Shown here: positions 1 through 40,426 of the stretch, piece by piece
Numbering within the stretch: position 1 is the stretch's first letter
Layout of the letters: each line of letters opens with the position of its first letter
Assembly (NCBI RefSeq): GCF_000003605.2
Contig: NW_003156736.1
Coordinates: forward strand, 310,837 to 357,881
Length of the DNA stretch: 47,045 bases
Source: Saccoglossus kowalevskii
Taxonomy: Eukaryota > Hemichordata > Enteropneusta > Harrimaniidae
Direction of reading: 5' to 3'
Notes under the pieces: model-generated
The model's input: the letters and a program-made list of their open reading frames with translations, nothing else
Told to the model about the DNA's origin: nothing
The model's database searches: none
Translations under genes and position numbers: made by a program

Positions 1-2327
1 GTTCATCAGTGATTTTCGTGGTTTCGGAGAGTGATGATTAAATTTAATAACATATGCTTGCTTTACATTACTAAACTGTTTTAATTCTATCATTTCTATT
101 ATTTTGAGCAAGGACAAGGTCCTGTACCGGGACATTGTCGCTCGGTCCCATAGACGTCCATGCATTGAGACGAATAGATCGTCAGGCCCCTGTGGTTATA
201 CGTTCAGACTCTGAGTTGGTTGCCCAACCAGTCAGCTGGCGTGTGTACGTATTAACGTCAACTCTCAGTGAAAAGGCCATTGTTTTAATATGGATGGACT
301 TTGATTGATCATTAGAAACTGTCGGCATTTTTTTTTGGAGGGGGAGGTGCATTCTCCTTCCCAGAGTTCCTTGCGGTTAGATCACCGAAAGTACTAGTAT
401 CTCTGCCACCACACACCGCCATTTTGTGGTGAAACACCACAAGACTTTTACTACGCGTATTATTTGCGTATTTTTGTTATTAGAGGGATCTAGTGTTGAT
501 TTATTACTACTGGAAAACAAGCTTTAAAATATTTTATCGATAGCTGATAACGATATTTCCGTAAATGCACTGTCAAGGGTGAAATAGTTATAATTTACAG
601 AAGAAAATAATTTCATGCGGCGGAATAACTGTTGCTAAGGTGTTAGTCGGTTCATCAAGCTGACGGCCCTGTCGATCGCTAGGCGAAGACTATGAAGAAA
701 GGAAAGCACTTCGTGGTATTGACAGCGAACACGTTCTATTGCCACTCCGTTTGTGCTAAGGAAAGTAAAAGTATGAGCTTCTCACTGTGAAAACAGCCAA
801 AATCCACAAACAACGCGCACGCTTTCGTTGGGTTCGAAAATCGAACACCTGCATTGCAATGGTTTGGTGCGCGTTTTTGAAAGTCGTACCACTGTGATGC
901 ATTGACCAATCAACGACAAGCATAAGATCGCGTGGTGGCAGAGATATATTCGTGATAGAACTCTGCCTGGGGAGATTGGGGGAGGTGGTCACCCAGAAAA
1001 CAAAACAACACACACGTTTGATAGAAGAGAGATAACAGCAAAATATTCATCATTACGAATATAAAAAAAAAATATTGTTTACACACAAAAAAAACTTGCT
1101 ATCTTACATTCCAGCGTACTAGACATAATATACTGTGAACGTATTATTTATTCGGCTATTTTTCACTCAAAAAAATGAATTCCGTGTATTAGCTATACCG
1201 GACTGGGCAAAATTTTGGTTGTTGTTAGAGATGTAGTTGTAAAATACGTCACGTATAGCTGTTATGGGGACCTCAATCGGAAGACACGTATCCGGGGGGG
1301 GGGGGGGTTGGTTATAGAACTTGCCTAATGGGGACGTGCCCCTAAAATGGGTCTCGTTTTTTTTGAATTTTAGGTATAAGTTTCGGACTTATTTCTGGTC
1401 AAGACAAAAATTTTCCGATTTGGTATACTTATGGGTCCGTATATAAGCAAATATCTCCACCTCAGATCCCGGCCTCAGATCCATATATACATTAACCCGG
1501 AAATTAAACAAGGCAATCAACATTTAAACGGAGATTTAACACGGAGTAGAAGAGGGCGCGCATTCTTCAGTGAAACCTGCTTCTATTGGAGATGCTCTTC
1601 TAATAGAGCAAATATTTCCAATAAACAGAAATGGTACTTTGGCATAAATATGGGTATAGATTTTGTCACTATCAAGGTATAAAAATGGTCACACTTTTGA
1701 GCACTCAGGGGCATCTCCCAACCAAGCTATGTATCAACTGCCCCCCCCGTATGTTGTTAGCAAATTGGTCGCTAAGCAATGACGACAACGACGACCGCTC
1801 CCGACATCTCATACCAATACGTAAAACTTCACCATACTGCACTTTTATGGACGAGAATTCCATACAAATATTATATCACTACTGCCTTTGTACTGAGCGT
1901 TCGTTTTAGAGTGAATCAACTAGCATTCAATACAACCATAACACATCAAGACAATTGAAGGTTAGGTAACACTTGCCAACTTTTCTAAAATAACATGGAC
2001 TTTAAAACTGGTACAATTAAACGTCTTCGGTGCCCTAGACCCCTGGATGACCACAAACCATGGTCCTTGTGATACTGACGGCTCATATACTTGACAGTAT
2101 GAGCAAACCCTCGTACTGATCGATTAACTCGTACTGATCGATTAACTCGTACTGATCGATTAACAGTAAAGTTCACAAGCCTGGTCGTTAACTTGAACTC
2201 GAACTTTGTACAAATGCCAGAAACGTACTTGTGTTGCAAATAAATGTTTCTGTTTCGCTGAATTTAAAGATCGTCACACTAAGGAACCCTGGCGTTTCCA
2301 AGTGTCACGCTCATTAGTCCCACTTAC
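1..2327. other. Non-coding, CpG-rich flank left of the AIG1-like exon array
   Basis: I see no convincing exon on either strand. The open frames here (for example minus 756-1013 and plus 1431-1909) show no family resemblance. The stretch should lie in the intron that joins the AIG1-like first exons to their shared body, which would be left of base 1 on the minus strand. It contains a G-run near 1297-1310, a triple 18-bp tandem repeat (2111-2164), and near 1577-1615 a short piece related to the direct repeats at 26.3 kb (the shared string is CTAATAGAGCAAATAT). I looked for the second exon of an AIG1-type gene (a membrane segment following directly on the WNL motif) and did not find one, but a short divergent exon could be missed by eye. 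Confidence 0.6.
2111..2164. repeat. Tandem repeat, three exact 18-bp units
   Basis: The unit TCGTACTGATCGATTAAC occurs three times head to tail without a mismatch. It lies about 160 bp beyond the splice donor of the most distal AIG1-like first exon, on the intron side. Each unit contains TGATCGATTA, which holds an ATTA homeodomain-type core. The repeat is too short and too identical to be a CRISPR array, and the context is eukaryotic. It may be a polymorphic minisatellite or a clustered binding site. Confidence 0.9.
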
Positions 2328-2471
2328 CAGGTTCCAGACAGTCAGTATTTTATAACGCCCTCCGAAACTTTGCGGCAATACGCCTGACCGATAGAGCGAG
2401 GTGTCGTAACGCAATGAAACAAAATCTAACCAAAATAAACTGCAATGAAATACAACTTGCGCTCGTGTCAT
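2328..2471 (-). CDS. AIG1/ADTRP-like variable first exon E (48 aa, partial gene)
   Basis: The exon encodes the N-terminus of a FAR-17a/AIG1-like integral membrane hydrolase; AIG1 and ADTRP cleave fatty acid esters of hydroxy fatty acids in membranes. Reading the minus strand from the ATG at 2471 gives 48 codons ending ...SFGGRYKILTVWNL, followed directly by the donor GTAAGT, so the exon ends in phase 0. Residues about 5-20 are hydrophobic (membrane segment 1). Thr44 in the ILT motif aligns with human AIG1 Thr43, the nucleophile. The frame is open upstream of this Met, but that part has no similarity to the sister exons. It is the exon closest to the presumed shared body. Its start lies only 434 bp below the end of exon D, too little room for the rest of a gene between them. 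The catalytic histidine must come from downstream exons outside the window. Confidence 0.72.
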
Positions 2472-2905
2472 GTCAGCCAATATAGAAGTCAAATATAGGG
2501 TATATAGACTGGAATGCATCGGTTTAAAAATAAACTTGTTGTACCCGTTGCTTATACAGTATAAGCTATTTATAGCGATATGTACTGGCTTAAAGCACGT
2601 GAGTGTAACATGCGCGACGTATTTCTCCGTTCCGTACTTGAAATAACTGGGGGGAAAAAACAATATTTTGTTTCTTTAATAGTTTCCTTGAAATTCCTTG
2701 AGAGAATTTGATCGTATAAGTTGCGCTTTAGTGACGTTGGCAGTCGTCAGAGGGCGCAACTCAGCAACCTTCCCAGGTTAGCCTAATTTTTCGTCCAGGT
2801 TACGCAAACCCAAAACACAAGATACATACGTTTTACACGTTTAGGATTCGCGAAATTCTAGGATTCTAGACTGAGATAACGTGGTCGGCCATTTTAAAGA
2901 CTTAC
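2472..2905. other. Spacer between first exons E and D
   Basis: These 434 bp separate two AIG1-like first exons on the minus strand. They probably hold the promoter of exon E: the minus strand has a TATATA-like stretch near 2497-2505, about 30 bp above the start codon. No exon with the next AIG1-type membrane segment is visible. This shortness is the main argument that exon D splices past exon E. Confidence 0.5.
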
Positions 2906-3070
2906 CATGTTCCAGATAGTGAGAAACTTTGCATTCCCACCAAAACTTCGCGGTCCGACAGCTCTCATCATGTCGTCAGCCAGGATTGTCATGTCGTAAT
3001 AAATACCAAAGGCGTATATGACAAAGATGGAAGTATGGGAAAGAAAACGGAAAATATACTCGGACGCCAT
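2906..3070 (-). CDS. AIG1/ADTRP-like variable first exon D (55 aa, partial gene)
   Basis: This is an N-terminal exon of an AIG1/ADTRP-type membrane hydrolase. The ATG at 3070 has an ideal context (CCACCATGG) and opens 55 codons ending ...SFGGNAKFLTIWNM, followed by the donor GTAAGT in phase 0. A hydrophobic segment covers about residues 8-24. The GIYYD motif after it and the FGGxxKFLTxWN block match the family; human AIG1 has YGGSWKFLTF at the same place. Thr51 is the predicted nucleophile. It is most similar to exon C (shared GP-x-SF-x-GNAKFLT), which suggests these two are the younger duplicates. The last residue is Met where the other four have Leu. The rest of the protein is not in the window. 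Confidence 0.8.
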
Positions 3071-4816
3071 GGTGGAAATCACGCTGACCCTCTGAGGTGC
3101 AATGTCGATCTGTGCAGGTGATTAAAATATTGTTTTTTCCCCGACCTTTGGTCGCTCCATGCGGGTACAATATTTTGACCCGAGCTAATCTATGTAAATT
3201 ATCTGGTCATTTCTCCAATCTGATCAAAATTCGATTATAGTATAGGCTCAATTTATGTATATTTTTTTTTTCAATTTCCATATTTTATTCATTGTCTAGC
3301 TGCATGGCGACTGTTGCTACATCTGAGTGCGTACACTAGACGTAGGGACTTCAACTCGCTTGGCAGATAACACTTACACTCGAGAGGCACTGTAATCGAC
3401 CCAAAAAAACGCACGCCAGAGGTTTCTCACAGATAGTGTAGCATTTATTTCATAACCGACCCACCACAATGGTCGCAAACTAGCCCGCCAACCCTCCGTC
3501 TCCGGCCGGGTTACCAACAATAATACATTTATCTTTATGACATCGCGTGACGACGGTGACGCGCTGCGTGACGACGGTGACGCGCTGCGTGTCGACTATG
3601 GCGTTTCTGTAGTATTTAATGAGAAGTTTACATTTCTCCAATTTACCATAGCCATGTCTGAAATATATTGTATGGAGTATATGTATTAGTAGATAAGGAG
3701 GAAACGTATGTTATTGACTTAATGTTTCCAAGGAGTGCATTTTCACTTAAACTGTAGAATAAGAATACAACAATAGTGAACCGCGACGCAACCAGCGTAA
3801 CTGACAAGTACCACATTTGCACATGCGCAAAACAGCAAACACCTTTGGGGTGAATCAAGATGGATGTATGTGGTCAGAACCTACAGGGCAACGAAGTCCG
3901 GAACAAGCATTCATCTCTTGACACTTCTCATCACCGATATTGAAAATAATATAATTACAGGCATATTACGTAACAAATGATATTTCAACTCACGATCACA
4001 ACATTCAGAGTCGTCTATGAATATCTGTTTTTCGTACAGAGAGTTACAGCATGTCCAGTTGAGGGCGGCCAAGCAACTTTCCGTCTATCGGCAGCTGGAT
4101 GTGTGCTGCCGAGGTCCGATAGCATATACGACAACAATGGTGTGGAATAGGTAATGCAAAACGAACACCATGTCTGCGACCTACTTGCCTCGATTATCCG
4201 CATCCATGACCGCATGATGAAGTTTTTGCTAGACTTTGTTCATTACGTATAAAGTACATTGACACCTACGTACATTATGTAATCTCGTTCCCTGTGATAA
4301 AACATTGATATCGTAAATAGATGGGTGCGATCCCAGCTAAAATAGATTTACGTCGTCCATGAAAGGTACTAACGGACGTTAGTACTTTCCATGCTTCGTC
4401 TCACCATCTCACGTTTATTTGTTTTCCTTTTGTTGAGTCTGTTGACATGAGTTGTTCGATGGTACTTACATTTTTTTCTCAATTTTATCATTATTTTGTT
4501 CGTATATTTTTAATAATTTTTGGTTCGTCATTATAATATGGTCATTCGTACAGTCATTGTTTAATTTTTTCCAATAATTTCCTGCGCACCCTTTTAAATT
4601 TAATGTTTTCAGTCACGGTGAATTTACCTACATAAGTTTCACGAAACATGCCTGCCCAGAATATATTAGGAGTACGTTTTTCTTTACTCTGTGTTCCGTA
4701 GTGACTTTCCCCCCTCCCCTCCCGGGGAATTACAGTTCAAAATATTGCCTTTAGAATTCAAACTAAGCGTGAGTGCCACGTGATATTGGGGGGGGGGGGG
4801 TCTTTTATCGACTTAC
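3071..4816. other. Spacer between first exons D and C
   Basis: No coding exon is recognised in this 1.75 kb. It contains a 21-bp GC-rich tandem repeat (3545-3590) and an imperfect hairpin around 4360-4392. The G-run at about 4789-4800 abuts the donor of exon C. A minus frame at 4015-4215 is open but unlike any family I know. The promoter of exon D should lie just above 3070 on the minus strand; I see no clear TATA there. Confidence 0.5.
3545..3590. repeat. Tandem repeat, 21-bp GC-rich unit, 2.2 copies
   Basis: The unit GCGTGACGACGGTGACGCGCT is present twice without mismatch (3545-3565 and 3566-3586), followed by the start of a third. Each unit contains two TGACG half-CRE motifs. Its GC content stands out against its AT-rich surroundings. 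It lies between first exons D and C. Confidence 0.85.
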
Positions 4817-4975
4817 CAGGTTCCAGCTAGTAAGAAATTTTGCATTTCCACAAAAACTAGGGGGTCCGACAATCTTCCTTAAATTGCCAGCTATCGTAGT
4901 AGAGTTGTAATGAATCCCGCTAACGTATATGACAACGATGCAAATGTGAACGAGAAGACGCCAAATATACGCCAT
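4817..4975 (-). CDS. AIG1/ADTRP-like variable first exon C (53 aa, partial gene)
   Basis: This is an N-terminal exon of an AIG1/ADTRP-type membrane hydrolase. From the ATG at 4975 (context CAGAATGGCG) it reads 53 codons ending ...SFCGNAKFLTSWNL and then the donor GTAAGT, phase 0. A hydrophobic segment spans about residues 7-22, followed by the YY/HYN-type linker. Thr49 aligns with AIG1 Thr43. Cys42 replaces the first Gly of the usual FGG motif, and Ser50 replaces the residue after the nucleophile, so the pocket side may differ from the sisters. A longer open frame runs upstream to 5209, but only the part from this Met is homologous, so I choose this start. Closest relative: exon D. Confidence 0.78.
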
Positions 4976-5822
4976 TCTGAAAACTGACTGTGCCAATTGA
5001 ACTGAACAGTGAACAGTTCGACCTTTGCCCAGATAACAATACACAGAGGCGGCGGCACGAATTTTAACATGGGGGGGGGGGGTCTGCTCACTAACTTTGC
5101 GTCGAAGGCGCGACCTTACTATGTGGTCTGGGGGCATCCGCCCTCTCAAACATTTTGAAATATAGACCCTAAAAAACGCAATTTCCTGTATTTTGAGGGG
5201 CTGACACAAAGGGTTTCAGCGTGATTTTGAGGGGCGACCACCCAACATTTTTTTCGGGCAGTCACCCCTCTGCACCCTGTACCGCCGCCACTGGTACAAT
5301 CATATACACCGTCGGCGCATCCTCTACTGTATGAGCGCCACCTAGAGCAAAAAAATGAATTGTATGTTAAATCACCAAATATCTAAATTAAAAGCCTCCG
5401 TCAGTCTGAACTTGAAAGGCTCTATTTCATATTTGTTAGACGAGTTATCGAGGTATACCCTGACTCGCGATTATCGTTTGTTTAATATTCGAATCATAAC
5501 GGTGCGACGAATGGGAGAGCAGGAAAGATACAGTGAACAGATTGTTGTGTTGGAGCAAAGACTATAGAGTCTATATAGTCTTTGGTTTGGAGGTATCAAC
5601 ACCGACCCGGCTTATTGTAAACGAAGAAACGAAACGAAACGACCCCTGAGCTGCCAGGAAATTAATATTGATGGGAACGGCGGATTGATATACTTCTCCG
5701 CGATCGAGGTGAAAATGACATACATATATTGTTGCTTTCTGGTACACATTCAGAGTGTAGTCAGCATAAACGTCAGTTTATAGCTCCGGCAAAGGGTTAA
5801 ACAACAACTGCAACGTACTCAC
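4976..5822. other. Spacer between first exons C and B
   Basis: I see no exon of the AIG1 family here. The stretch contains a G-run at about 5071-5081 and a hairpin at 5556-5584. A plus-strand frame at 5355-5567 is open but has no recognisable domain. Just above exon C the minus strand lacks an obvious TATA box. Confidence 0.5.
5556..5584. repeat. Short inverted repeat (hairpin)
   Basis: CAAAGACTATA pairs with TATAGTCTTTG across a short loop. It is one of several near-perfect short palindromes in the spacers of the AIG1-like exon array (see also 6113-6147, 7358-7387 and 7453-7488). No run of T follows, and a bacterial terminator makes no sense here. Confidence 0.85.
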
Positions 5823-5969
5823 CAAATTCCAAAAAGTCAGGAATTGCCAAGCGCCCCCAAATCGGTGCGCACTGGGCATTTTAGGGTTGACATAGGTAGC
5901 ACGGTACATGTAAGATAAAATGTAAATTACAAACACCGCCAAGTGAATACAAATCAGAGAGGGATTCAT
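5823..5969 (-). CDS. AIG1/ADTRP-like variable first exon B (49 aa, partial gene)
   Basis: This exon is the closest of the five to human AIG1. From the ATG at 5969 it reads 49 codons, with a hydrophobic segment at about residues 6-21 and then MPSAHRFGGAWQFLTFWNL, which parallels human AIG1 MPSHQTYGGSWKFLTF residue by residue. The donor GTGAGT follows in phase 0. Thr45 is the predicted nucleophile. As in the sisters, only the first membrane segment and the nucleophile-bearing loop are encoded; the remaining membrane segments and the catalytic histidine must come from other exons. The product would be an integral membrane, probably endomembrane, lipid esterase. Because this exon keeps the family sequence best, it may be the ancestral copy. 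Confidence 0.83.
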
Positions 5970-6965
5970 CGCAACGGAACCACGGTGGCACGATATTTAA
6001 AGCCCAATACACGTACTTCCAGGTTTGTGACCTATGACATGTTGACCTTTGACATGAAAGACAAAAACATTTGAATCACTGATCTGTTTTGAAATCATGA
6101 TCTTCACGCGAGCACGGTTACTAAAAAAATCTTTTTTAGTAACCGTGACGCGAGGGACCACTCCATCCCGGAACATGCCAGATATATACGGTGGCGCAAC
6201 ACATAGGAATGCAGTTGGGGATTGGGATTTGTTCGTCTTCAAAAGCTCAGATCCGTCCCATTTTATAAATTGGCGAATCTCAGAACTGCATTTATTATGG
6301 GTGGAAATACACGATATGACATCATATGACATCACATACAACAATTATTATGGCCCTTAACATTTATCGAAATTGTTACATTTGTCTATTAATTCGGAAT
6401 AAGAAAAAAAACAGCAAACTGAAAACCTTATATATATATATTTTTTATATAAATATGTCTTTTTTGAAAAAAATAAATAAATAAACAGCACGTTTTCATA
6501 TCATTTACGATTCCAAAATCGTGTTTGTGCAGCCACCCCACCTCAAAAATGTCAAGAGTTTGTATAACCATTCATAATGCCAGTCTCATTGTCGGTGACC
6601 CGAAACAAACGTTCCTTGGCCGGCGAAGATAATGCGCGGCATAGTGCGAGGCATAGTGACGACTAATGCCGTGAAATCGCGCCCTCTAGCGTACATGAGC
6701 GAGGCCCCTATAACATTGTATGCATTATTGGTAGTAGGCATTTCCCGGGCACTTTAAAGGGATGATATATAACAGAATTAATAGTTTCTTTTGAACAGGA
6801 ACGGGTATTTTTATTTCTTTTTCTAGCTCGTTGTTCAAACTTTGACGACGATCATTTTCTTCATGAAAAACCAACCAACTTGAGGATAGTTACACATACT
6901 GACATATTGAAACACTTGTTGTTTTTATGCCCAATATACTTTGTGAATTTCTGATCTATACTTAC
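5970..6965. other. Spacer between first exons B and A
   Basis: No recognisable exon is present in this 1 kb. It holds a perfect hairpin (6113-6147), an AT microsatellite-like tract (about 6431-6480) and a CpG-rich patch near 6600-6720. Open frames on both strands at 6000-6360 cover the hairpin and look like chance frames. The promoter of exon B may lie just above 5969 on the minus strand. Confidence 0.5.
6113..6147. repeat. Perfect inverted repeat, 16-bp arms
   Basis: CACGGTTACTAAAAAA and its exact reverse complement are separated by three bases. The flanks also repeat ACGCGAG directly on both sides. It lies about 150 bp upstream of first exon B on the minus strand, so it could be part of its promoter or a cruciform-forming boundary. 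It may equally be the remains of a small foldback element. Confidence 0.9.
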
Positions 6966-7133
6966 CAGATTCCAAAATGTTATCATTTTCAACTTTCCAA
7001 ACCCTGATCTAAAACGCTTTCTCAATCTTGGCGACTGTGTGCTAAGATTAATGGAGAGATCGTAATAATACGCATACAGATATACAACGATTACAGTCAG
7101 GTGAAACAACAAGGAAGACCAACGAGTCGCCAT
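6966..7133 (-). CDS. AIG1/ADTRP-like variable first exon A (56 aa, partial gene)
   Basis: This is the most upstream of the five minus-strand first exons and the one nearest the HIVEP gene. The ATG at 7133 (ACAATATGGCG) starts 56 codons ending ...GFGKLKMITFWNL and the donor GTAAG, phase 0. A hydrophobic segment covers about residues 6-23, followed by YYYD like the YYD of exon D. The linker is longer and very basic (RLRKRFR at about 36-42). Thr52 aligns with the AIG1 nucleophile. It is the most divergent of the set because the FGG motif has become FGK. The distance from this start to the HIVEP start codon is about 4 kb, and the two genes are divergently oriented. Confidence 0.77.
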
Positions 7134-7357
7134 ATTGTCGCTTGAAGGGCACGTGCAGGCAGGGCAAAGGCCATTGATTTCAGTGTAAGCTTATCTGGTT
7201 CGGGATCTCCGTATAGAAATCATGTTGGTTGGAAATATAATTGAACTTTCCGTCTTCTATGCTAAACGACATGACATAAAATGAAAGATGATTTTAAATA
7301 CGAATAATATGAATTTCGAATTCATGAATAATTCCTACCCAGACTACTACATTTTAC

Positions 7358-7387
7358 CACAGTCCCTCTATAGATAGAGGGACTGTG
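7358..7387. repeat. Perfect inverted repeat, 14-bp arms
   Basis: CACAGTCCCTCTAT and its exact reverse complement are separated by two bases. It lies about 225 bp upstream of first exon A on the minus strand, next to the CRE at 7403. Such a perfect palindrome can form a cruciform or bind a dimeric factor. I do not recognise the motif. Confidence 0.9.
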
Positions 7388-7402
7388 ATTTTACGTTAGA
7401 GA

Positions 7403-7410
7403 TGACGTCA
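7403..7410. promoter_or_regulatory. Consensus CRE (TGACGTCA)
   Basis: A full palindromic CREB/ATF site lies about 270 bp upstream of the start codon of AIG1-like exon A (minus strand). Another full site is at 10905, upstream of HIVEP. Eight-base matches occur by chance, but the position in the CpG-rich divergent promoter region makes it plausible. Confidence 0.45.
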
Positions 7411-7452
7411 AATCGGCAAAACAAATGTTTATATACTGACATCCGAGTTACA

Positions 7453-7488
7453 CCTCAGACAACTAATAAAGTTACTAACTGTCTGAGG
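7453..7488. repeat. Short inverted repeat (CCTCAGACA arms)
   Basis: CCTCAGACA pairs with TGTCTGAGG around an 18-base spacer. It is one of four short palindromes in the 5.5-7.5 kb region. CAGACA/TGTCTG contains the Smad box GTCT on both arms. Confidence 0.8.
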
Positions 7489-7612
7489 TTACACACACTG
7501 GTCACACCCGGCGCGAAGTTGCGATAACGGCTCGCATAACTTTCAGTCTCACGTTTATGACGCAATGCCGATGATAATGTGTGGGAAAGCTGGCGTGACC
7601 CGGGCCTTGGCC

Positions 7613-7650
7613 TATAAATAAAGCATGGCAGTCAGAATGGTGTGACTCAA
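7613..7650 (+). promoter_or_regulatory. Candidate TATA-box core promoter, plus strand
   Basis: TATAAATA at 7613-7620 sits at the edge of a GC-rich stretch, and start-like sequence (TCAGAAT at 7632, CTCAAGT near 7647) follows at a suitable distance. Transcription would run away from AIG1-like exon A, toward HIVEP. It could be a far-upstream HIVEP promoter or serve a non-coding RNA; an open frame at 7661-7867 shows no known domain. Not tested by any transcript evidence. Confidence 0.35.
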
Positions 7651-8261
7651 GTCAGCCTGAGTGTGCCGGGCAAAGACGGAAAGTTCTCGTATCTACCCTT
7701 CTATCAGCAATTTTTCATTAACACTTAACGCAATCCTAGAAAGAAGGATTGTTTTTACAAATAAAAAAATCAGAAGAAAAAGAACATTGAGAGAAAAGCA
7801 AACACACAAATCCGAAAGAAAGAAAATATGCGATATCGTAACAAGACAGGAAGTAGTCCCAGTTTAAATCCAGGGTCCGTGGAAGGATGCCAGCGGTGAC
7901 AGTTATGTACTATGCATTCACACGCCGAGAAACGCAAAATTGAAAAGAGGCGCCGGAATTTAAATTTTTCGCATTTCTCATATTGATATATTGATTTATC
8001 ACATTTGTATATTTATTGAATACATTATCATTATTTCTACAATTATGTAGCAAGATATTGAGCAAACGATGTGTGTATTGGATTAGTTAGTGTATTATTA
8101 GAATAGTAATAAATACAATACATTGTTGCTTCTTAACGAACGCACTGCGTTGCAATATATGGGAGTACAACTGTACTATAAAATGACAAAACACCCGGCA
8201 AAGCATCCTACAAGATTTGGTCCTTTGTATAGGGTTTGGTTGGTTCCATAATGAAGTAATG

Positions 8262-8450
8262 TAGAGTACTTTATTTTCACTTCGAATTTATTTTCGCTGA
8301 AATGAAGGAATGATTCAGTGAAAATAAATCCAGCGAATATACATTTTTTCCCTATATTTTACATTAAACTTGTCAAAAATCAGTGAAAATAAATTCCACA
8401 CAAAACACCAAAAACGTCTTTTCAGCGAAAATTAATTCCAGCTAAGTAAT
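8262..8450. mobile_element. Degenerate foldback MITE, family A
   Basis: The stretch begins GAGTACTTTATTTTCAC and ends with GCGAAAATTAATTCCAG. In between it carries the blocks of the intact family A copies (for example 25410-25621): AATGATTCAGTGAAAATAAATCCAG, split here around its usual centre, and TCAGTGAAAATAAATTCCA. The terminal TACTGTA/TACAGTA boxes are eroded, so this is an old copy. Confidence 0.7.
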
Positions 8451-8944
8451 TCGTATTGTCCCACACTCCCAGTTTCTTGGAAATTTAGGCATTGCTGTAG
8501 TTACATGTATTTTAGAGAATTTAGCCTGGCCAGTTTTAGACTGATTTTGTTCATCATTGTTGCCAAAAATTGACGTTTACCAAAAACAAGAAATATTTGA
8601 AGCAGGTACATTAATTTTCATACATTTATTATTTAGTTTATTTGAAATTTCATTCAAATTAAAATATTCTTTTACCAAATACTAGTATACCCAAATCAGA
8701 GAAGGGATGATTTTCAAAAAGTGTTGATTGTAGTAATCAAGGAAATGATGTTCATTTTATGCAAACTAATATACAAATTTACTCATAAATTATGAAACAA
8801 TCAATTACTTTAATTGCGAGAAACTAAAAGTCATACAAAGTCTGCAACTACTGTTTATTCTGAATGTAAACATGCCAAACAAAGCACGAATATGTTTTTG
8901 ACACTGAGAAAAAACAATCAATTCTAAAATACTCACCATGAAAC

Positions 8945-8964
8945 CATGGAACTATAGTTCCATG
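8945..8964. repeat. Perfect 20-bp palindrome CATGGAAC/GTTCCATG
   Basis: CATGGAACTATAGTTCCATG is its own reverse complement. An almost identical palindrome with one extra base lies at 9552-9572. Two copies 600 bp apart, upstream of HIVEP, could be a dimer-binding site or the ends of a small vanished element. Confidence 0.85.
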
Positions 8965-9551
8965 ATGAAACATACTAAAATAACAAAAATAGCAAATCGC
9001 ATCTATTGTGTCTCCATGGTAACCGAAACCTGGTCTTTCCAAAAATATAATCGATATTTTGTCAGTGTCTGAAGGACAAACTCTTCTAAAAAACAAGTAA
9101 ATTTGTTCATAAGCTGCTATCTGACAATGAATGATCATTGAAAACATTCCCCTTTCCATGGCAAAAAAGTTTCAAACCTCCAATTTAATCAGGTTATCCT
9201 TGCATAAAGGCACACTCCAGGGGATCTCTGATCCAGGGCGACACCTGGAAATGTTACGAAAATTCGTCCATAACCGTTGATGATAAATCACTGTGTGTAT
9301 TTTTTTTAGTTACCTTGCTGACAAACAGATGAGCAAACAAATCAACTAACCAATTCAATGCCAACAAAAAAACATAATATTTTCATTGGTGGAGGTAATT
9401 GTCATTATATAAAAACATGCCAAATAGACATTGTTTTTTAATTTTGTTGGTATTTAAAAAAAAACACCGTTAATCATGAGTTAAACTCATGGTCGGAGCT
9501 AGAAGATACATTTGATACTTACAGGTTCCTATAGAGCATGGTTACTAGTAT

Positions 9552-14864: not shown

Positions 14865-15227
14865 TACTGTAAAATGAGTAATTTTCACTGGNNNNNNNNN
14901 NNNNNNNNNNNNNNNNNNNNNNNNNNNNNNNNNNNNNNNNNNNNNNNNNNNNNNNNNNNNNNNNNNNNNNNNNNNNNNNNNNNNNNNNNNNNNNNNNNNN
15001 NNNNNNNNNNNNNNNNNNNNNNNNNNNNNNNNNNNNNNNNNNNNNNNNNNNNNNNNNNNNNNNNNNNNNNNNNNNNNNNNNNNNNNNNNNNNNNNNNNNN
15101 NNNNNNNNNNNNNNNNNNNNNNNNNNNNNNNNNNNNNNNNNNNNNNNNNNNNNNNNNNNNNNNNNNNNNNNNNNNNNNNNNNNNNNNNNNNNNNNNNNNN
15201 NCAGTGAAAATTAGTCATTTTACAGTA
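14865..15227. mobile_element. Foldback MITE, family B, interrupted by an assembly gap
   Basis: The left end TACTGTAAAATGAGTAATTTT and the right end (reverse complement: TACTGTAAAATGACTAATTTT) face each other around 310 unknown bases (14892-15201). The ends match family B copies at 20679 and 24934. The gap is therefore probably the hairpin-forming interior. The true length may differ from 310. Confidence 0.8.
14892..15201. other. Assembly gap (310 N)
   Basis: These are unknown bases only. The open frames reported through here are artefacts of N translation. The gap is flanked by the two inverted ends of a family B MITE. Confidence 0.99.
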
Positions 15228-31330: not shown

Positions 31331-32201
31331 GTATGTGTAAAATAGGTCATACATAAAGGTCACACATTATGATTCTTCTAGCAATCATGTTCATTTAATA
31401 CTGTAAACCACTGAATTTTAATAATTTTATGGTATTCATGTCGCAGAATTCATTGACACTATGTGTCTTATTACCCCGGAATACTGTAAAACCATTTATT
31501 TTCACTAACAATTAATTAAACTTTTCTTATGTCTTGAGCGTATCTAGGTTCTAACTAAGTTCACAAATTTGCGAGGGAAACAGTGAGTTCTATTGTTATT
31601 TGAAATGATCCAGTCAATTTGATTTAGCAAAAAAAGCTACATATCATTTTAGCAAATTTGGCTCAATGCAAAAGTTAACACAATCTTAATTTAGCTAAAG
31701 TGCCAACAATCACATTGTAAGATTATACTTTCTTTTAGCTACAATACATCTTTAATCAGTCTAATTACAAATTAGCAAAAGTAGCTAAAATAACATACTA
31801 GCTTCTTGCATTTTTTGGAGAAAATAATTGAAAAAAACTATCATTCGTTAGTGAATCTATACTTGATGAAAGTACCAGGATGTGTGACCTTCAGGAGTTT
31901 ATGGGTAAGGCATGTTGTTGTACTTGGCCATTAATGTCACAAATTGTCTTTTGTTGTTCAAAATTGTGAATATTAATTACTGTAGCTAATTTGCAAAATT
32001 TTTCCATTTTTGCAAACATTTTGATAGCGACCTAAAGGCAATGGTAAAGAATAATCCATACATTTTAGTATAGAAAATGTGGAAGAAAAAATATTGTGTT
32101 TGAAAGGTTCATGTCCATTTTCTTTATAGCTACTGATACATGTGTAATGGTGAAATGTTTTGAAACTGTCGTTCACATTTATTTGTTGTTTACCCCTGCA
32201 G
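31331..32201. other. HIVEP intron 2 (871 bp)
   Basis: GTATGT at the left and TTTACCCCTGCAG at the right. It includes the left part of a family C MITE (TACTGTAAAACCATTTATTT at 31482). The open frame of exon 3 runs back to an ATG at 32096, but that stretch is hydrophobic, low in charge and intronic in character. Confidence 0.75.
31482..31660. mobile_element. Family C MITE, partial
   Basis: TACTGTAAAACCATTTATTTTCACT is shared with the intact copy at 45493-45667 (first 20 bases TACTGTAAAACCATTTATTT), as is TAAGTTCACAAATTTGC. No right terminus is visible; the limit is approximate. Confidence 0.6.
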
Positions 32202-35200
32202 GTAACGGGAAAGATGATGTTGAAAAACCTGCAAAAAAAGCCAGGTTGGACATGGGTAAAAAGACTAACAAAAGGAAAGCTAAGAAAAGCGAGTCGGTGA
32301 GAACAACAAGATGCAAAGCTGTTAAAAAGAGACTTAAATTAAAATTAAAAGAACGGACACAGCCACAGAGAATTGCAGTGACTGCTAGGAACAATGAAAA
32401 ATTGTCAAATAAATCGCAGGGATCGACCAAAAGTGAGGTGGCAACTGTTGATGATGATTCAGTTATCGATAAATATGACTTGATTAAATCTCATAACTCT
32501 AGATCTGCCAAGCTGTCAAAAACTAAGGATAGTCCAGTTAAAACAACAGAGCAGAGTCCTCCGGCACCATCACTTGAGAGACATAGGTCCATGAGAGAAT
32601 GTAGGGTTGGGAATAATTCTGATACTGAAATGCCCATCCTAGAGCCAGTTGATGCTGAAAAGAAAGATGCAGAGAACTCTATGAAGGGTGTAAAAGAGGA
32701 GCATGTTGAAGGGGGGAAAACAACTACAGAAAATATGACTGCACATGAAGCATTGTCCAGAAAGTTTGCTTTAGAGGCATTGCTGCAGATAACACACACT
32801 GAACTGCATACTTTGTCTGCACAAGAGCAAGAGGAACAGTTGTCACGCCAACGCATTGCTCATCGTCAACAACATTTGTTGCAACAACGACAACTGATGA
32901 TTCAACAACACCAACACCAACAGCAGCAGCAGCAGCAGCAACAACAACAACAACAACATCAGCAAAACATGCAGCAAGAGGAACACGTTTGTGGCAACGT
33001 GGAGGAAAATGCTGAATCAGAAAATTCAGCTGCTACAGGTAGATCATTTGTGAAAGTCTCTGATAGTGATAAAGGTATTGTGAAATACCAACTGAAATCA
33101 GAAACTCTGGAGGAGCAAGGGTTAAAACTTGTGTATACTGCACAAACAGGTGATCAAATCGAACACAATCCAATAAGCTATGGAGCTTATCGACCAAGAA
33201 AATCAAGTAAGCCATTGGATCCAATGAGAGAGGTGCTGAAAAAAGACAACAAACCACCTAAAAAACCAGGCAGACACATTTGTCAGTTTTGTGGGAGAGG
33301 ATGTGCTAAGCCAAGTGTTCTAAAGAAGCATATTCGCTCTCACACAAATGAGAGACCTTATCCTTGTAATATATGTGGGTTTGCCTTCAAGACAAAAAGC
33401 AACTTGTACAAACACAAGAAGTCACATGCACATGCAATCAAGGCTGGACTTGCACCAAACTTGGATGAAGCTACTAAAATAATTGATTACCCTGACAACA
33501 TTGATGATTCAGATGGAAGCAGTGACGACGAAGATGATAGTGGCACTGAAGGTAGTCCGGAAAGTAGTCATTCACATTCACAACTGAGACGATCTGAATG
33601 TGAATATGATGACCAAGTGTGTGAGAATCTTATCTCATCAAGTCCGTCTTACAGACACTATGTTCCTGCTCATTGTATTCCAGAACGTGCAGTTCCTGTC
33701 TATCTCATGCCTGTAGCCATGCAACAGGATGGAAAATTTATATATGATACAAGTATTCCAAGTATAATGGGAAAGGAAAGGAATGATGATGTTAGGACAG
33801 GTATGATGCAAAGATGTTATCCTTCGCAAGCTGTTGTTCCTAATGTGAAATATTCTGATGTTGTGATGACCAAACAGAATGAAGGTTCAACTGAAGTTCA
33901 AAAAGAGAACCCTGAAACCACACAAGAAACAAAAGAATGTGATGATGTTTCTGAGAATCATGAATCTGAACAGCCTTTATCATCCTCTGATAGGGGTTCT
34001 TTTCATCATGAGAACGTTGCTGGATTTCAAATTGATATGCAAACTGGTAAAGCAGTGCCTGTGACCCATAATCTTACTCCCCAGCCTACCTTACCTACAG
34101 CTGGAAAACTCAGTACATCAGAGGTTTCCAGTCCAGGATCAGGTGTTGCCACACCCACAACCCCAAAAAGTATTGATAGACAAAGCCTTCATGAGCGGAT
34201 TAAGCGGTTAATCTCACAGAATGAAGCAATTGTGGATAATCCAATGTTAGAAAGTGTCAAACCTCGTAGAATGTCTGGTCCAAGAAGAGAAAGCACTGAC
34301 AACATAATTATAACCACTGAACGTGGAGACGGAACTGTTTCAGTGACAACAAAAGGGAAGAGCAGAACTGGTGAAAATGCTGTGAAAGATGGGAGAAGTT
34401 TCAGTTCAGAGTCTCCTTTGTCGTCAATTAAGGAAGGCAAACCAAAGAAGGAAAGGAAGAAAAGAGAGAGAAAGCCTAAAGTTGCTGAGCCTGTTTTGCC
34501 AGTAACTCCTCTCTTTGACAGCAAACTTGCTGAAGAGATGCAAAGACATATGTCAGAGGCATTAATGCCTGGAAAGAAAGATGTCATCAGGAGCATATTA
34601 ATGCAAGGAAGGGAAGAGCCCTCACCACAGGCTTTTGTTCCGCCTATTGCTGCTGTTCCAGAGTCAAACACAATACATGAACAAATGCAACTGCATCATA
34701 ATTTACAACCAACAAGTACGATTCAAGTGATGGATCAAGAACATCAAAGTAACACTCTGATTATTTCTCCACAAGAACATTATTCTACAATTTCCCAGGA
34801 AGGTGAATTTCACCAATCTAACTTGCCTTCTCCTGGAAGAGAAACTAAAAAGATTAAAAAACAAAGGCGGTCACGTAAGGAGAAAAAACATGCAGTGGAC
34901 ATTTCACCAGTCAGTGAAATAGCAAAAAATGCATCTGATCATTTTCAAGAAGCACATCTTGAATTGTTGGTCAAGGTTAAAAATAGAGCAGGACAGAATA
35001 TTGCGGCAAAATCTTCAGCTCAGGAAATCTCAGTGATTCAGCATACTAATACCGCTCTTACAAAGAACTCTGATTATTCCATATCAACTGAAAATCCCTT
35101 ACATATTGATCCAGAATCTTCAGCGACTATTAAACCATCCTCCACAAGTAGTGCCTACTTGCAGCCTGTTGATAGTACAGTGCAGGAAAGTTCACCATCA

Positions 35201-38200
35201 GCTTTGCCAATATTGAAATTATATGAAATGGCAGGAACTAAGATAGAAAAGGCTAATCATGTCAAATGCACGAAACATTCTGAAAGTTTACTGGTTCCTG
35301 AACACAAAGCCTCTGTATCTGAAAATAATACAGAGGTTGCATCAAAGGAGTGTTCATTGGAGATTCACTCCAAGCAGAAATTGTCAGACGAGTTCAATAA
35401 ACATAAAATATGTTCTGAGGCTGAACCTTTAATTACAGACTACTCCAGATTACAACCTTTAAATATCTCAAAACCTTCTCTATCGTCTGAAACCATTACA
35501 GTAACAAGCCTATCTTGGTCAGGCATCACAAATTATTCAACTGCACAGATGCAAGTGCAGTCACCTAAAATTACTGACTATTCACAAATTCCTCCACTTC
35601 CTGAAGATTTTGTTTATAAACTTTCATATAAGCCACCTATGGTCAGTTGTTCTTCACCTTTGACATCAAGAGGATTGAAACGCAGCATATCACTAGAGTC
35701 AACATTGGCGCCAACACAGAAAATAAGGTCCAAATTGGAAATTCCAGTTTCTTCTGCACTTGCTAAAGAGTTGTCAGCATCGTCACATCTTGCATTGTCA
35801 TCGGTAGTGTCATCCCCTTCAATTCCAATCCCATTAGTTGTTTCACCTCGACAATTGTCAAGCAGTCAGGGCATAGCAGCTTCAACGATATCACCTACAA
35901 ATGTTATTTCAGGACAAATACTTAGCATATCCCCTGTAAAACCTGCTTCACCATTAGGAGGGCCTGTGCCACCTAAACTACTAGTTCTCAGACCTAGCGA
36001 ACCTATTTCAGTAACTGCACAGAAAGTTGTTATGCCTGGAACGCCAGTTGGAGCGATTGTACTTGCTCATGTTCCATATACTAATTCTCCTGCTACATTG
36101 GAAGCCATGTCACATGTAACATTCTGCTGTTTACAGAGGCCACAGCCAATGTATGTTGTACAAGGAGCTAACCATGCCATCTCAATGTACTCAAATTGGA
36201 GAGTCAGTCATCAAAACACTAATCCTTTAGGGATGCCAACGAAGGTCCTTTTGTCACTGTATAACACATCAAAACGAAGACGGAATGGACCTTTCTATGT
36301 CAGTGCAGCAATCACACCAAAGGGTGTTGGGAATTTGACTCATTCAAGCCTTTGGAACTATGATTATAATGTCAAGAGCCTGGAACAAACTGTCAAAACA
36401 GAAGTTAAAACTACCAGCACTACTCCAACGTCAGACATTGACAATTCTGAAAACAAAGAGGAACCTCATACTAAGGACCATTATACCAAAGAATCCTTGA
36501 TGCAAGAACTCATTGAACAAAAAATTAAGGAAAGGAAAATGAAGGAGTTGATTGAAAAAACAGAGCCTAGTCGAATACCCATTTTCAGAGGTGGCTACAA
36601 ATCAAATGAGGAATACATCTATGTCAGAGGCAGAGGGCGTGGGAAATATGTTTGCGAAGAGTGTGGGATCAGATGCAAGAAACCTAGCATGTTAAAGAAA
36701 CACATTCGGACCCATACTGATCTGAGACCTTATCACTGTAACTTCTGTAACTTTTCCTTCAAGACGAAGGGCAACCTAACTAAACATATGAAGTCCAAAG
36801 CTCACAACAAAAAGTGCCTTGAAAATGGTGTAACTGTCACAGAAGTGGACGGAGAAGCAGTGTATGATGACCGTGTCATTTCCAGACTAAGTCTGTCTGA
36901 TGATAAAATTGAGGACCATCAGTTCTCGGATGATGATGATGAAGGTACTGATTCTGCAGAATCTGATTCGGATGGTGAACACGATGACAACTATTCAGAA
37001 CAACCAATGGAAATTGACTCCTCTTCATCTGATTCATTATCGGCTAAACTCAAAATTGATCATGAACCAACCCATGTTGCTATGGCTAAGCCAGATGGAT
37101 CTGATCCTGATATCAAGGAACTAACAATTAATCCATCATGTGAATATACTGCACCATGTTCTCAGATTACGCCAACTTTGGAGCAGTCTATAGCCACAAC
37201 TAAAATTGTAGCTGGGCATAACTTTGGACAAGTGCAGATGCAGATGCCATTAATGGCACTAAGCACAGATGCTGTTCATGATATTGGAGAAATAAAAATA
37301 CCAGGAGCAATTGATAATACCAAAAAAGACAGTGGCAGACTATGTGACTTGATTGTTGCATTAAAAACTAGGACTAAAACTCCTGAAAAACAACCTGGGG
37401 ACAAAGAAGCACTGCCAGAAGCCGACAAGGAGCCAGTGAAAGAACGAAAACTTACAAAGTCTGAAGTTGTTGGGAAGCTTTCTCAGCATCTCAGCAACAA
37501 ATATCAACAAAATTTACAAAAACAAATGGCTGATAGACAGATGATTCAACAACTACTTCAGCAAAAACAGCAACAGGATCCTTCTCTGAGTGATACAAGG
37601 TGGCTAACAAACTTTACAAGCTCTGGCTACTCATCTACAGCAGTGGTGCTGACGCCACAAAAAGGTTCAAATGCATCAGCAAATCCTCTTCCAATTCTAG
37701 ATAAATATGGGCACATTACCCCTCCTTTACCTTATCTATCTAATATGTATGCTTACAGAGTTTCCACAAGAGTTAATGACTCAACATTTGGTCAATCACA
37801 GATTGAATCAGAACTTATACAACCAACACCAGTTACCGTGTTGCCAGAAGCAATGTCTACGATTACATTGCCTTCTGTAGTTACTTCAACCGTATTTCCT
37901 TCAACTGAAGAAAATAATCCTGACATTAAAAACAGCGTAAGCTCAAGTGCGGTAAAATCTCAACTCTCGATGCCCATGGCATCTCTCAGTAATTTTGCAC
38001 TTTTCCCAACCAGCAGTGGATTGTCATCACAGTCAGCATCAGATCACTCAAAGATGTTGTACACTTCAGCATCTGGGACACAAACAACTTTGGTATCAAG
38101 TGCAACTGTGGCTATAGGCACCAGTAATCTTAAGCTGAAGATACCATCTCCTGCTGCTAATGTGGATGGGGGGATTATGAAAACAGGAGGCTCGACAATT

Positions 38201-40426
38201 ACATCCCTTTTGAACTTGCCTGTTGCTCCAGTTCTCTCGTCAGTTCCACAGTTACCACACAGCATGAAATTGAAATCTCCTTTGCAAACTATCTCATCAG
38301 TTTGTGTTAATCCAGTCAGTTCAGTTACACAGACACCCAGTTCTGTGTCCGGGTTTCTTCCCAGCATGTCAAAAGTAATTGTACAACCTGTCAACACTAG
38401 CTCAGATGCTACTCAATCACTTGGCATTGGATCAACCACTGTAGCACATTCCAGCTTCTCACCATCATCTTTCAGTTTCTCAGAAGCATCAAAGCCGGTA
38501 AATTATCCCCACACACTGTTTAACTTAACACAAACCAGCACAACAGCAACACCTCAATTCAGCATCCCACAGCCTGTGTTCAGCTTCTCTAGATCGGCAA
38601 CCAACATTTCACAACCAACATTTAGAATAACTGGAGTCAACACATCAAGCAGTACTCTACAGTCCTTACTCAGTGTTGCTGGGATGAATGCACCAGTGCC
38701 TCAAAGCAGTTTCGCACAATCTATGCTGAGTTTTACTGGTATATCCACACAAGCAAACATTCCCCCATCTCTATTAACCTTGAGTGGGAATGGAACTAAT
38801 TTCAAACCCAACAATGTATCAACACATAATCCACCGGTTATGACACCAACTGGATTTTCCATTCCCAGTTCCTCCCCAAGGCTGTTTCCTCATGGTGAAG
38901 TTCCATTGGCACCAGCATCACCAGTTATCTCATCACCTCGGCCCAGATCTCGTAGGAAAAGTTCTACAAAAGAAGAACAAAGGAAAAGTGCATCTCCAGA
39001 AATTGTGGGTGGATCACTTTATCACATGATCCCTGAACGTGGGAGAGTGACTGTTAAGATGGAGCATGCAGACATAGATGCTCGTATTCACCATGAAACT
39101 ATCGCTCAATTAAGAATTCCAAATATGTCACCACATTTGGAAAGCACTCTGGGAGCCAATGAGCTGTCACCAGCAAGTTCTGTTAATATGCCACCTGTTA
39201 ATCCAACTTCACAAGCATCAGTGAGGTCAAAGGTCCCACCTCCACAGTGTGAGCCAATATCAGACGATGAAGTATTTGATGAAAACAATGATGGATATAC
39301 TCCAAAAGAAAACAAATTGCAGGAAATTAATTACACCTCCAAAGTTAGAACATCACCAAATCAAACCAAGTCTTTGCCGGCAACTACCCAAGTAGCTTCT
39401 GCCATGCCTGTGAAAAAATTGTTTACCACTGGATCTATGTCTGTTATCCCACCTCATGTACCTCTAACAACGGATCCAAGAATGGTACAACCACTGCATT
39501 TTTCCAGTTTACCTCACTCATGTTCTATTAAACAGTTACTGTTGTCACGACCTCCACCTCGTCAACTGAGCCCGGAGGAAGCATTACCAGGACGCTTCCC
39601 AAGTACAAGTCATCAGGCAGAGGCTATGTCTGCTGGACAATCAGTGCATGGATTTGGATACCCTAGAATGTTTGGATCTGATAAAGGGGGAAATTTCTCA
39701 ACAATGCCACGAACATCATCACCAAAACTGCATGTTGCAGAAACAGACGAATCGTCAAAGGATACTCCTGCAAACAGTGGACTTAAATGCAATGTCTGTT
39801 TTCGGGACTTCTTGAAGCCAAGTCAGCTTCGGATTCATATGAGAATACATGCTGATGACCGACCTTTCACTTGTCGGGAATGCTGCATTTCATTTCGTAC
39901 AAAAGGTCATTTACAGAAACATGAACGATCGCAGTCTCACTTGTCAAAAGTGGAAGCTGTGGAATTGCCTTCATCGGATTGTCAGGACCCAAGACCCTTC
40001 AAATGCAAAGAATGTACAATTGCTTTCAGAATCCCAGGACACTTGGCTAAACATCTACGATCCAAGTTACATTTGAATGCTTTAGATAGACAAGGAAAGG
40101 GTAATACAAAACTAGACGAGGATGATGACGATAAAAGTCACTGTTCAGATTCAGATTTATTGGTGTTGAGTCCGGGAGAATATTCGGACAAATCGATTAT
40201 TAGTCCCGAAATTGAGTTTGTAGAAAGTAGGACAGAAATAGCACGTTCCAGCATCAGTAGTGAAAAAACAGAGACTGATGAAGTGAAATGTGAGACAGAT
40301 AAGGAGAGCCAGGCAAGTCATGAGAAATTAGTTAATGAAAGTGTGCCTTCTGCTGTGCCTAGTCCTACTGCAGTGCAGCACCAAGAAAAACATTCAACAG
40401 TCTCTCAGAGACCTGCTAATACCTAA
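32202..40426 (+). CDS. HIVEP: HIVEP/Schnurri zinc-finger transcription factor, terminal exon 3 (8.2 kb)
   Basis: Nuclear DNA-binding regulator of the ZAS family, known to bind kappa-B-like sites and, as Schnurri, to act with Smads in BMP signalling. With exons 1-2 the protein is about 2772 residues; numbers below are for that product. A polyQ/H tract spans 266-286. ZAS-N: C2H2 fingers 392-412 and 420-440, then an acidic run at about 460-480. ERIKRLISQNEAIVDN...KPRR (696-721) and EISVIQHTN (973-981) match human HIVEP1/3. Basic clusters at about 778-792 and 914-928 look like nuclear signals. Block 1334-1424 (NPLGMPTK) and GGYKSNEEY (1495-1503) precede ZAS-C fingers 1516-1536 and 1544-1566, with an acidic stretch from 1602. 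A C-terminal triplet covers 2561-2581, 2589-2611 and 2633-2655. The solitary CCHC finger of vertebrate HIVEPs is not seen. Stop TAA at 40424. The symbol denotes the family, not an orthologue. Confidence 0.96.
32903..32965 (+). repeat. HIVEP: Polyglutamine/histidine tract in HIVEP
   Basis: 21 codons of CAA/CAG with a few CAC/CAT, residues 266-286. An uninterrupted CAG block of about seven is followed by CAA. Such tracts vary in length between individuals and often sit in coiled-coil or activation regions; upstream residues (EQEEQLSRQRIAHRQQ) are helical and Q-rich. Confidence 0.9.

Follow-up and report, generated by a model that had tools for sequence, protein, structure and literature searches.

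Five tandem first coding exons of a putative AIG1/ADTRP-type membrane hydrolase gene beside a HIVEP-type gene in Saccoglossus kowalevskii

The stretch analysed here (hereafter the window) comprises 47,045 nucleotides of the genome of the hemichordate Saccoglossus kowalevskii (contig NW_003156736.1, positions 310,837 to 357,881; C4612:310837-357881 in the 4830 contigs, 572 Mb, that made up the genome searched). Close to its left end, the minus strand carries five tandem homologous first coding exons, all in one splice phase: exon A (7133-6966, 56 codons), exon B (5969-5823, 49 codons), exon C (4975-4817, 53 codons), exon D (3070-2906, 55 codons) and exon E (2471-2328, 48 codons). Each begins with ATG, is open throughout and ends in W-N-[L/M] followed by a GTRAGT donor in phase 0, which reads GTGAGT in exon B and GTAAGT in the other four. 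A purine occupies position -3 of the ATG in 5/5 exons, the start context of exon D being ACC-ATGG, and exons D and E are separated by 434 bp. An earlier account of this DNA, made from its letters without database searches (the sequence-only reading), had proposed that these are variable first exons of an AIG1/ADTRP-like membrane hydrolase. Its coordinates, codon counts, ATG starts, phase-0 donors and spacing of exons D and E were all reproduced, and the presence of an ATG, an open frame and a phase-0 GTRAGT in every exon supports the first-exon character it had assigned to them.

When a 30-base pattern combining the conserved motif and the donor was run against the window, five matches were obtained, as opposed to none in 100 shuffles; in the readable genome it again gave five matches, all at the array, while the reversed control gave none. 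The pattern was built from exons A-E, so that their own matching is by construction, and the result lies in its absence elsewhere. A profile of the five exons scored its own members in the window at E 9e-23 to 4e-27, also by construction, and rendered nothing better than E 0.046 as a sixth array exon there. Independent of any such construction, tblastn with exon D matched exons C (2e-15), E (1e-5), B (3e-5) and A (8e-5), and exon A was recovered, among the matches listed, from exons B, D and E; exon C is nearest to D (57% amino acid identity). Queries of the genome with each of the five exons found, outside the array, only two weak matches, one on contig C1667 at E 1.82, interrupted by two stops, and one on contig C3895 at E 0.74. 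This absence of array-like exons elsewhere is weak evidence, since the genome search was insensitive in its first look, which failed to find even exon B with human AIG1 as the query, and some of the genome reads N. The region of the exons also contains four hairpins (6113-6147, 7358-7387, 4358-4393 and 7452-7489; arms of 14-18 bases, 83-100% complementary, loops of 2-3), possibly remnants of small mobile elements, and tandem repeats at 2110-2164 (18-bp unit, 3.1 copies) and 3545-3596 (21-bp unit, 2.5 copies) adjoin exons E and D. Scans of the window for tRNA genes and Rfam families gave no matches.

AIG1 and ADTRP are threonine hydrolases that degrade fatty acid esters of hydroxy fatty acids (FAHFA lipids). 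The Pfam family to which they belong, PF04750 (Far-17a_AIG1), matched exon B (E 8.9e-5, 22.5 bits) and exon D (E 6e-4, 19.8 bits), in both cases below the curated whole-protein cut-off of 24.5; a single exon spans only ~43 of the 206 PF04750 positions. Exon B also matched human AIG1 in tblastn (E 0.001). A search of PDB sequences rendered no AIG1 relative at E <= 1. Alignment of exons A-E revealed seven invariant columns (M1, H11, Y24, G46, T52, W54 and N55, in the numbering of exon A), and adding the N-termini of human AIG1 and ADTRP, to make seven rows, left three (M1, P35 and T52). In the T52 column, Thr is present in 5/5 exons and is aligned with the residue that PMC8123165 and PMC8394805 give as the catalytic threonine (AIG1 T43, ADTRP T47). 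Since the primers for the T43A variant in PMC11139994 encode K-F-L-A-F-I-D, T43 sits within a K-F-L-T motif (K-F-L-[T]-F-I-D). The variable exon thus bears the nucleophile, and the catalytic histidine must come from a later exon; the histidine is given as H134 (AIG1) and H131 (ADTRP) in PMC8123165, and an H134A variant was assayed in PMC11139994, while PMC8394805 differs in naming His181 and His149. Two features that had been ascribed to all five exons stood in part. The block SFGGxxKFLTxWNL is intact in exon D only, with M replacing the final L, and is divergent in exon A (SGFGKLKMITFWNL). The single hydrophobic segment is distinct in exon B and not clearly above shuffled letters in the others: the best 17-residue Kyte-Doolittle means were 1.64, 2.36, 2.09, 1.68 and 1.41 for exons A to E, and these values were reached in 237, 21, 279, 451 and 513 of 2000 shuffles, respectively.

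To the right of the array, on the opposite strand and in divergent order, lies a HIVEP/Schnurri-type zinc-finger exon (32069..40423, plus strand), an open frame of 2785 amino acids with three zinc-finger clusters and a Gln run. Pfam identified C2H2 zinc fingers in this frame, clustered near residues 403-454, 1526-1582 and 2568-2625. Human MBP-1 (HIVEP1; PDB 1bbo) matched it over its full 57-residue chain (1.1e-29), one PRDM9 chain ranking higher (1.6e-31, four matched stretches), and an NCBIfam scan of the exon gave no matches. Human AIG1-HIVEP2 and ADTRP-HIVEP1 are, we take it, likewise divergent pairs, and an AIG-type gene adjoining a HIVEP-type gene here would agree with an old linkage. AIG genes of lampreys and cartilaginous fish adjoin EDN-like or HIVEP-like genes (PMC8394805), and ADTRP and HIVEP1 are named together at one pig locus (PMC9849246). 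The divergent HIVEP-type neighbour thus supports the AIG identity of exons A-E on grounds other than the similarity of their sequences; together with the PF04750 matches of two of the five exons and the catalytic threonine in all of them, it supports the family assignment of the sequence-only reading. Between the array and this exon, 310 N at 14892-15201 probably mark an assembly gap.

The five exons look old, constrained and functional, as judged from comparisons among themselves. In 10/10 exon pairs the proportion of differing synonymous sites (pS) exceeded that of nonsynonymous sites (pN), with Fisher p values of 1e-7 to 0.042, and this order was reversed in 0 to 73 of 2000 bootstraps, depending on the pair. 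The least saturated pair, C-D, showed a nonsynonymous distance (dN) of 0.29 and a synonymous distance (dS) of 0.73. In the 800-bp flanks the best match, aside from shared coordinates and exon ends, was a run of G (E 0.018); since flank similarity is at chance level, resemblance has been preserved in the exons alone. A neutral simulation (substitutions only, 0.365 changes per site, half of the C-D dS) showed that 0.7-1.4% of copies would retain the ATG, an uninterrupted frame and GTRAGT; this share was 2.0-4.7% when GT alone was required. These results bear on the idea that the array is a birth-and-death remnant, in which the exon was duplicated in tandem but only one or two copies (e.g. D or B) are used now, the rest having been recently silenced or being lowly used. 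The divergent motif of exon A, the weak hydrophobic segment of exon E and the lack of a detected promoter signal would fit such a history, and UGT1-type clusters do include pseudogene and relic exons (PMC1885805). Against it, 5/5 exons have retained, despite their old divergence, the start codon, the reading frame, the catalytic Thr, W-N and a complete GTRAGT, and pS exceeds pN in every pair; we regard it as unlikely, if the most serious of the alternatives.

The four gaps (A-B, B-C, C-D and D-E) and positions 1-2327 were each translated in three frames of the minus strand, with stops written as X. PF04750 was found in 0/15 of these translations, while a control stretch (5523-6269) treated alike recovered exon B at 9e-5. 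Motif scans and a profile made from two sequences, AIG1 and ADTRP, found no later AIG exon between exons A-E either; the profile was weak (exon B 4e-4, E 0.25, D 2.9; A and C not among the matches listed). The earlier claim that no later AIG1-type exons intervene between the five therefore held, on evidence that is good, not absolute, as a single very divergent later exon could escape such scans. Whole-frame Pfam scans of 1-9000 found nothing, yet they missed exons B and D too, and since these known exons were missed, the scans are uninformative. The same gaps are what makes it very improbable that several separate AIG1-type genes are present, with first exons clustered by chance and several bodies in the unread 36 kb to the left: that interval could contain more than one body, and invertebrate AIG genes have apparently diversified within phyla (PMC8394805), but whole-gene tandem duplication would leave bodies between the first exons, and none was found.

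The genome at large was also searched for AIG genes. PF04750 gave no matches at E <= 0.001, and at E <= 10 only exons B and D; human AIG1 as a genome query gave none, in a search whose first look was insensitive. A pattern coding for NH[GA]MHT, tried as a sign of an AIG body, occurred at 10 places in the genome (2 in the control) and was rejected, none of the 10 being AIG-like when translated. The pattern W-x-N-H-x-x-H-T occurred at 6 places (2 in the control), and the letters of three were inspected. One of them, C1357:267578-267600 (+), encodes W-I-N-H-T-L-H-T, which resembles the stretch around the AIG1 catalytic histidine, W-L-N-H-x-M-H-T. It may be an AIG body exon, possibly of a second AIG-type gene on that other contig.

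The sequence immediately upstream of the starts bears on a further alternative, in which a single upstream promoter and a shared untranslated leader exon would serve the whole array, with mutually exclusive splicing into one of the five start-codon exons. By eye, some of the starts are closely preceded by sequence that resembles the end of an acceptor (TTTTCAG one base before the ATG in exon C; CCCTTCAAG in exon A). No acceptor was seen by eye at a consistent place in all five, however, and exon B has no AG in the 40 bases upstream; the start contexts are also ordinary. We consider such a leader improbable. Some 480 bp upstream of exon A, a TATA-like word, CCTATAAATA, occupies 7611-7620 on the plus strand and possibly marks a divergent promoter.

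Taken together, exons A-E probably form an alternative-first-exon array of one AIG1/ADTRP-type gene that lies beside a HIVEP-type gene and is organized like UGT1A. Several points weigh against this interpretation, which is drawn from genomic sequence. Taken alone, exons A, C and E had no PF04750 match in the Pfam scan, which gave no hit at all for A and E, and the hydrophobic segment rises clearly above shuffled letters only in exon B and is weakest in E. Nine of the 10 exon pairs are near synonymous saturation and the pairs are not independent; moreover, past constraint is no proof that all five exons are in present use. The separate promoter that had been proposed for each exon is so far unsupported: TATA-like words occur within 130 bp upstream of 3/5 exons (A, B and E), as against 127/211 background positions, and no upstream element common to exons A-E above chance was found. 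The shared body is unseen, as the 36,075 bp to the left of base 1 of the window, where it is expected, read N. The neighbouring sequence, which the sequence-only reading had wished to see inspected for AIG1-type exons, showed none that was convincing in its 132,657 readable bases (window included), with weak tools: tblastn (on the first eight stretches and the window), the two-sequence profile and motif scans. The region reached 160 kb to the left, its outermost 20 kb and much between being N, and 50 kb to the right, of which the nearest 30 kb are N.

Under the proposed alternative-first-exon organization, transcription would begin at one of the five first exons, whose donor would then be joined to a single acceptor located left of base 1 and used by all five, the remaining array being skipped. 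The remaining membrane segments and the catalytic histidine would come from the common exons. The cell would in this way select the nucleophile-bearing first cassette that is joined to a constant body. The resulting isoforms would differ near the active site, affecting regulation or the range of substrates, and also in how their promoters are controlled, much as UGT1A varies the half that recognizes the substrate. The presence of five related front ends, each with a catalytic residue, suggests that the organism swaps the catalytic part of the enzyme by its choice of start. More tentatively, and with a probability that we place a little short of even, the exchanged unit would be the nucleophile exon itself: five promoter-and-exon cassettes, each with a different first membrane segment and the threonine, would serve one constant hydrolase body.

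If this is true, the exchanged part includes the threonine with which an integral-membrane enzyme hydrolyses lipids, and a switch of first exon could therefore retune the active site; one locus would yield a family of lipid hydrolases, and first-exon choice could alter substrate range, regulation or both. How the N-terminus of AIG1/ADTRP encodes substrate choice is, to our knowledge, an open question, and five natural N-terminal variants on one body would make it directly testable.

Alternative first-exon arrays are well known from UGT1A, GCNT2 and the clustered protocadherins. In the literature searched, mostly outside subscription papers and judged largely by titles and the openings of abstracts, no such array was reported for the AIG1/ADTRP/FAR-17a family, although isoform models generated automatically may already include one. 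The type of arrangement is known; what appears to be new is that it occurs in this family and that the exon being exchanged bears the nucleophile. The array resembles UGT1A-type clusters in its tandem homologous first exons on one strand, of similar length and frame, in the absence of constant exons between the variable ones (PF04750 in none of the 15 translations) and in the common downstream exons that are expected. The variable exons of UGT1 are each preceded by a separate promoter and code for the aglycone-recognizing half, which determines specificity and is joined to constant exons (PMC1885805). The present array differs in that the enzyme family is another, the exons are short (48-56 codons) and the variable part bears the catalytic residue; a conserved upstream motif, as in UGT1, was not found here, and the common exons are unseen, their expected site reading N. 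With AIG1 and ADTRP it shares the N-terminal segment, the K-F-L-T motif with the catalytic threonine and the HIVEP neighbour, while having five N-termini instead of one. Finally, chelicerate Dscam (PMC4835542) offers a parallel of an invertebrate gene diversified through tandem 5′ cassettes, with the difference that Dscam is a cell-adhesion receptor whereas the product of the present array is a putative membrane hydrolase.

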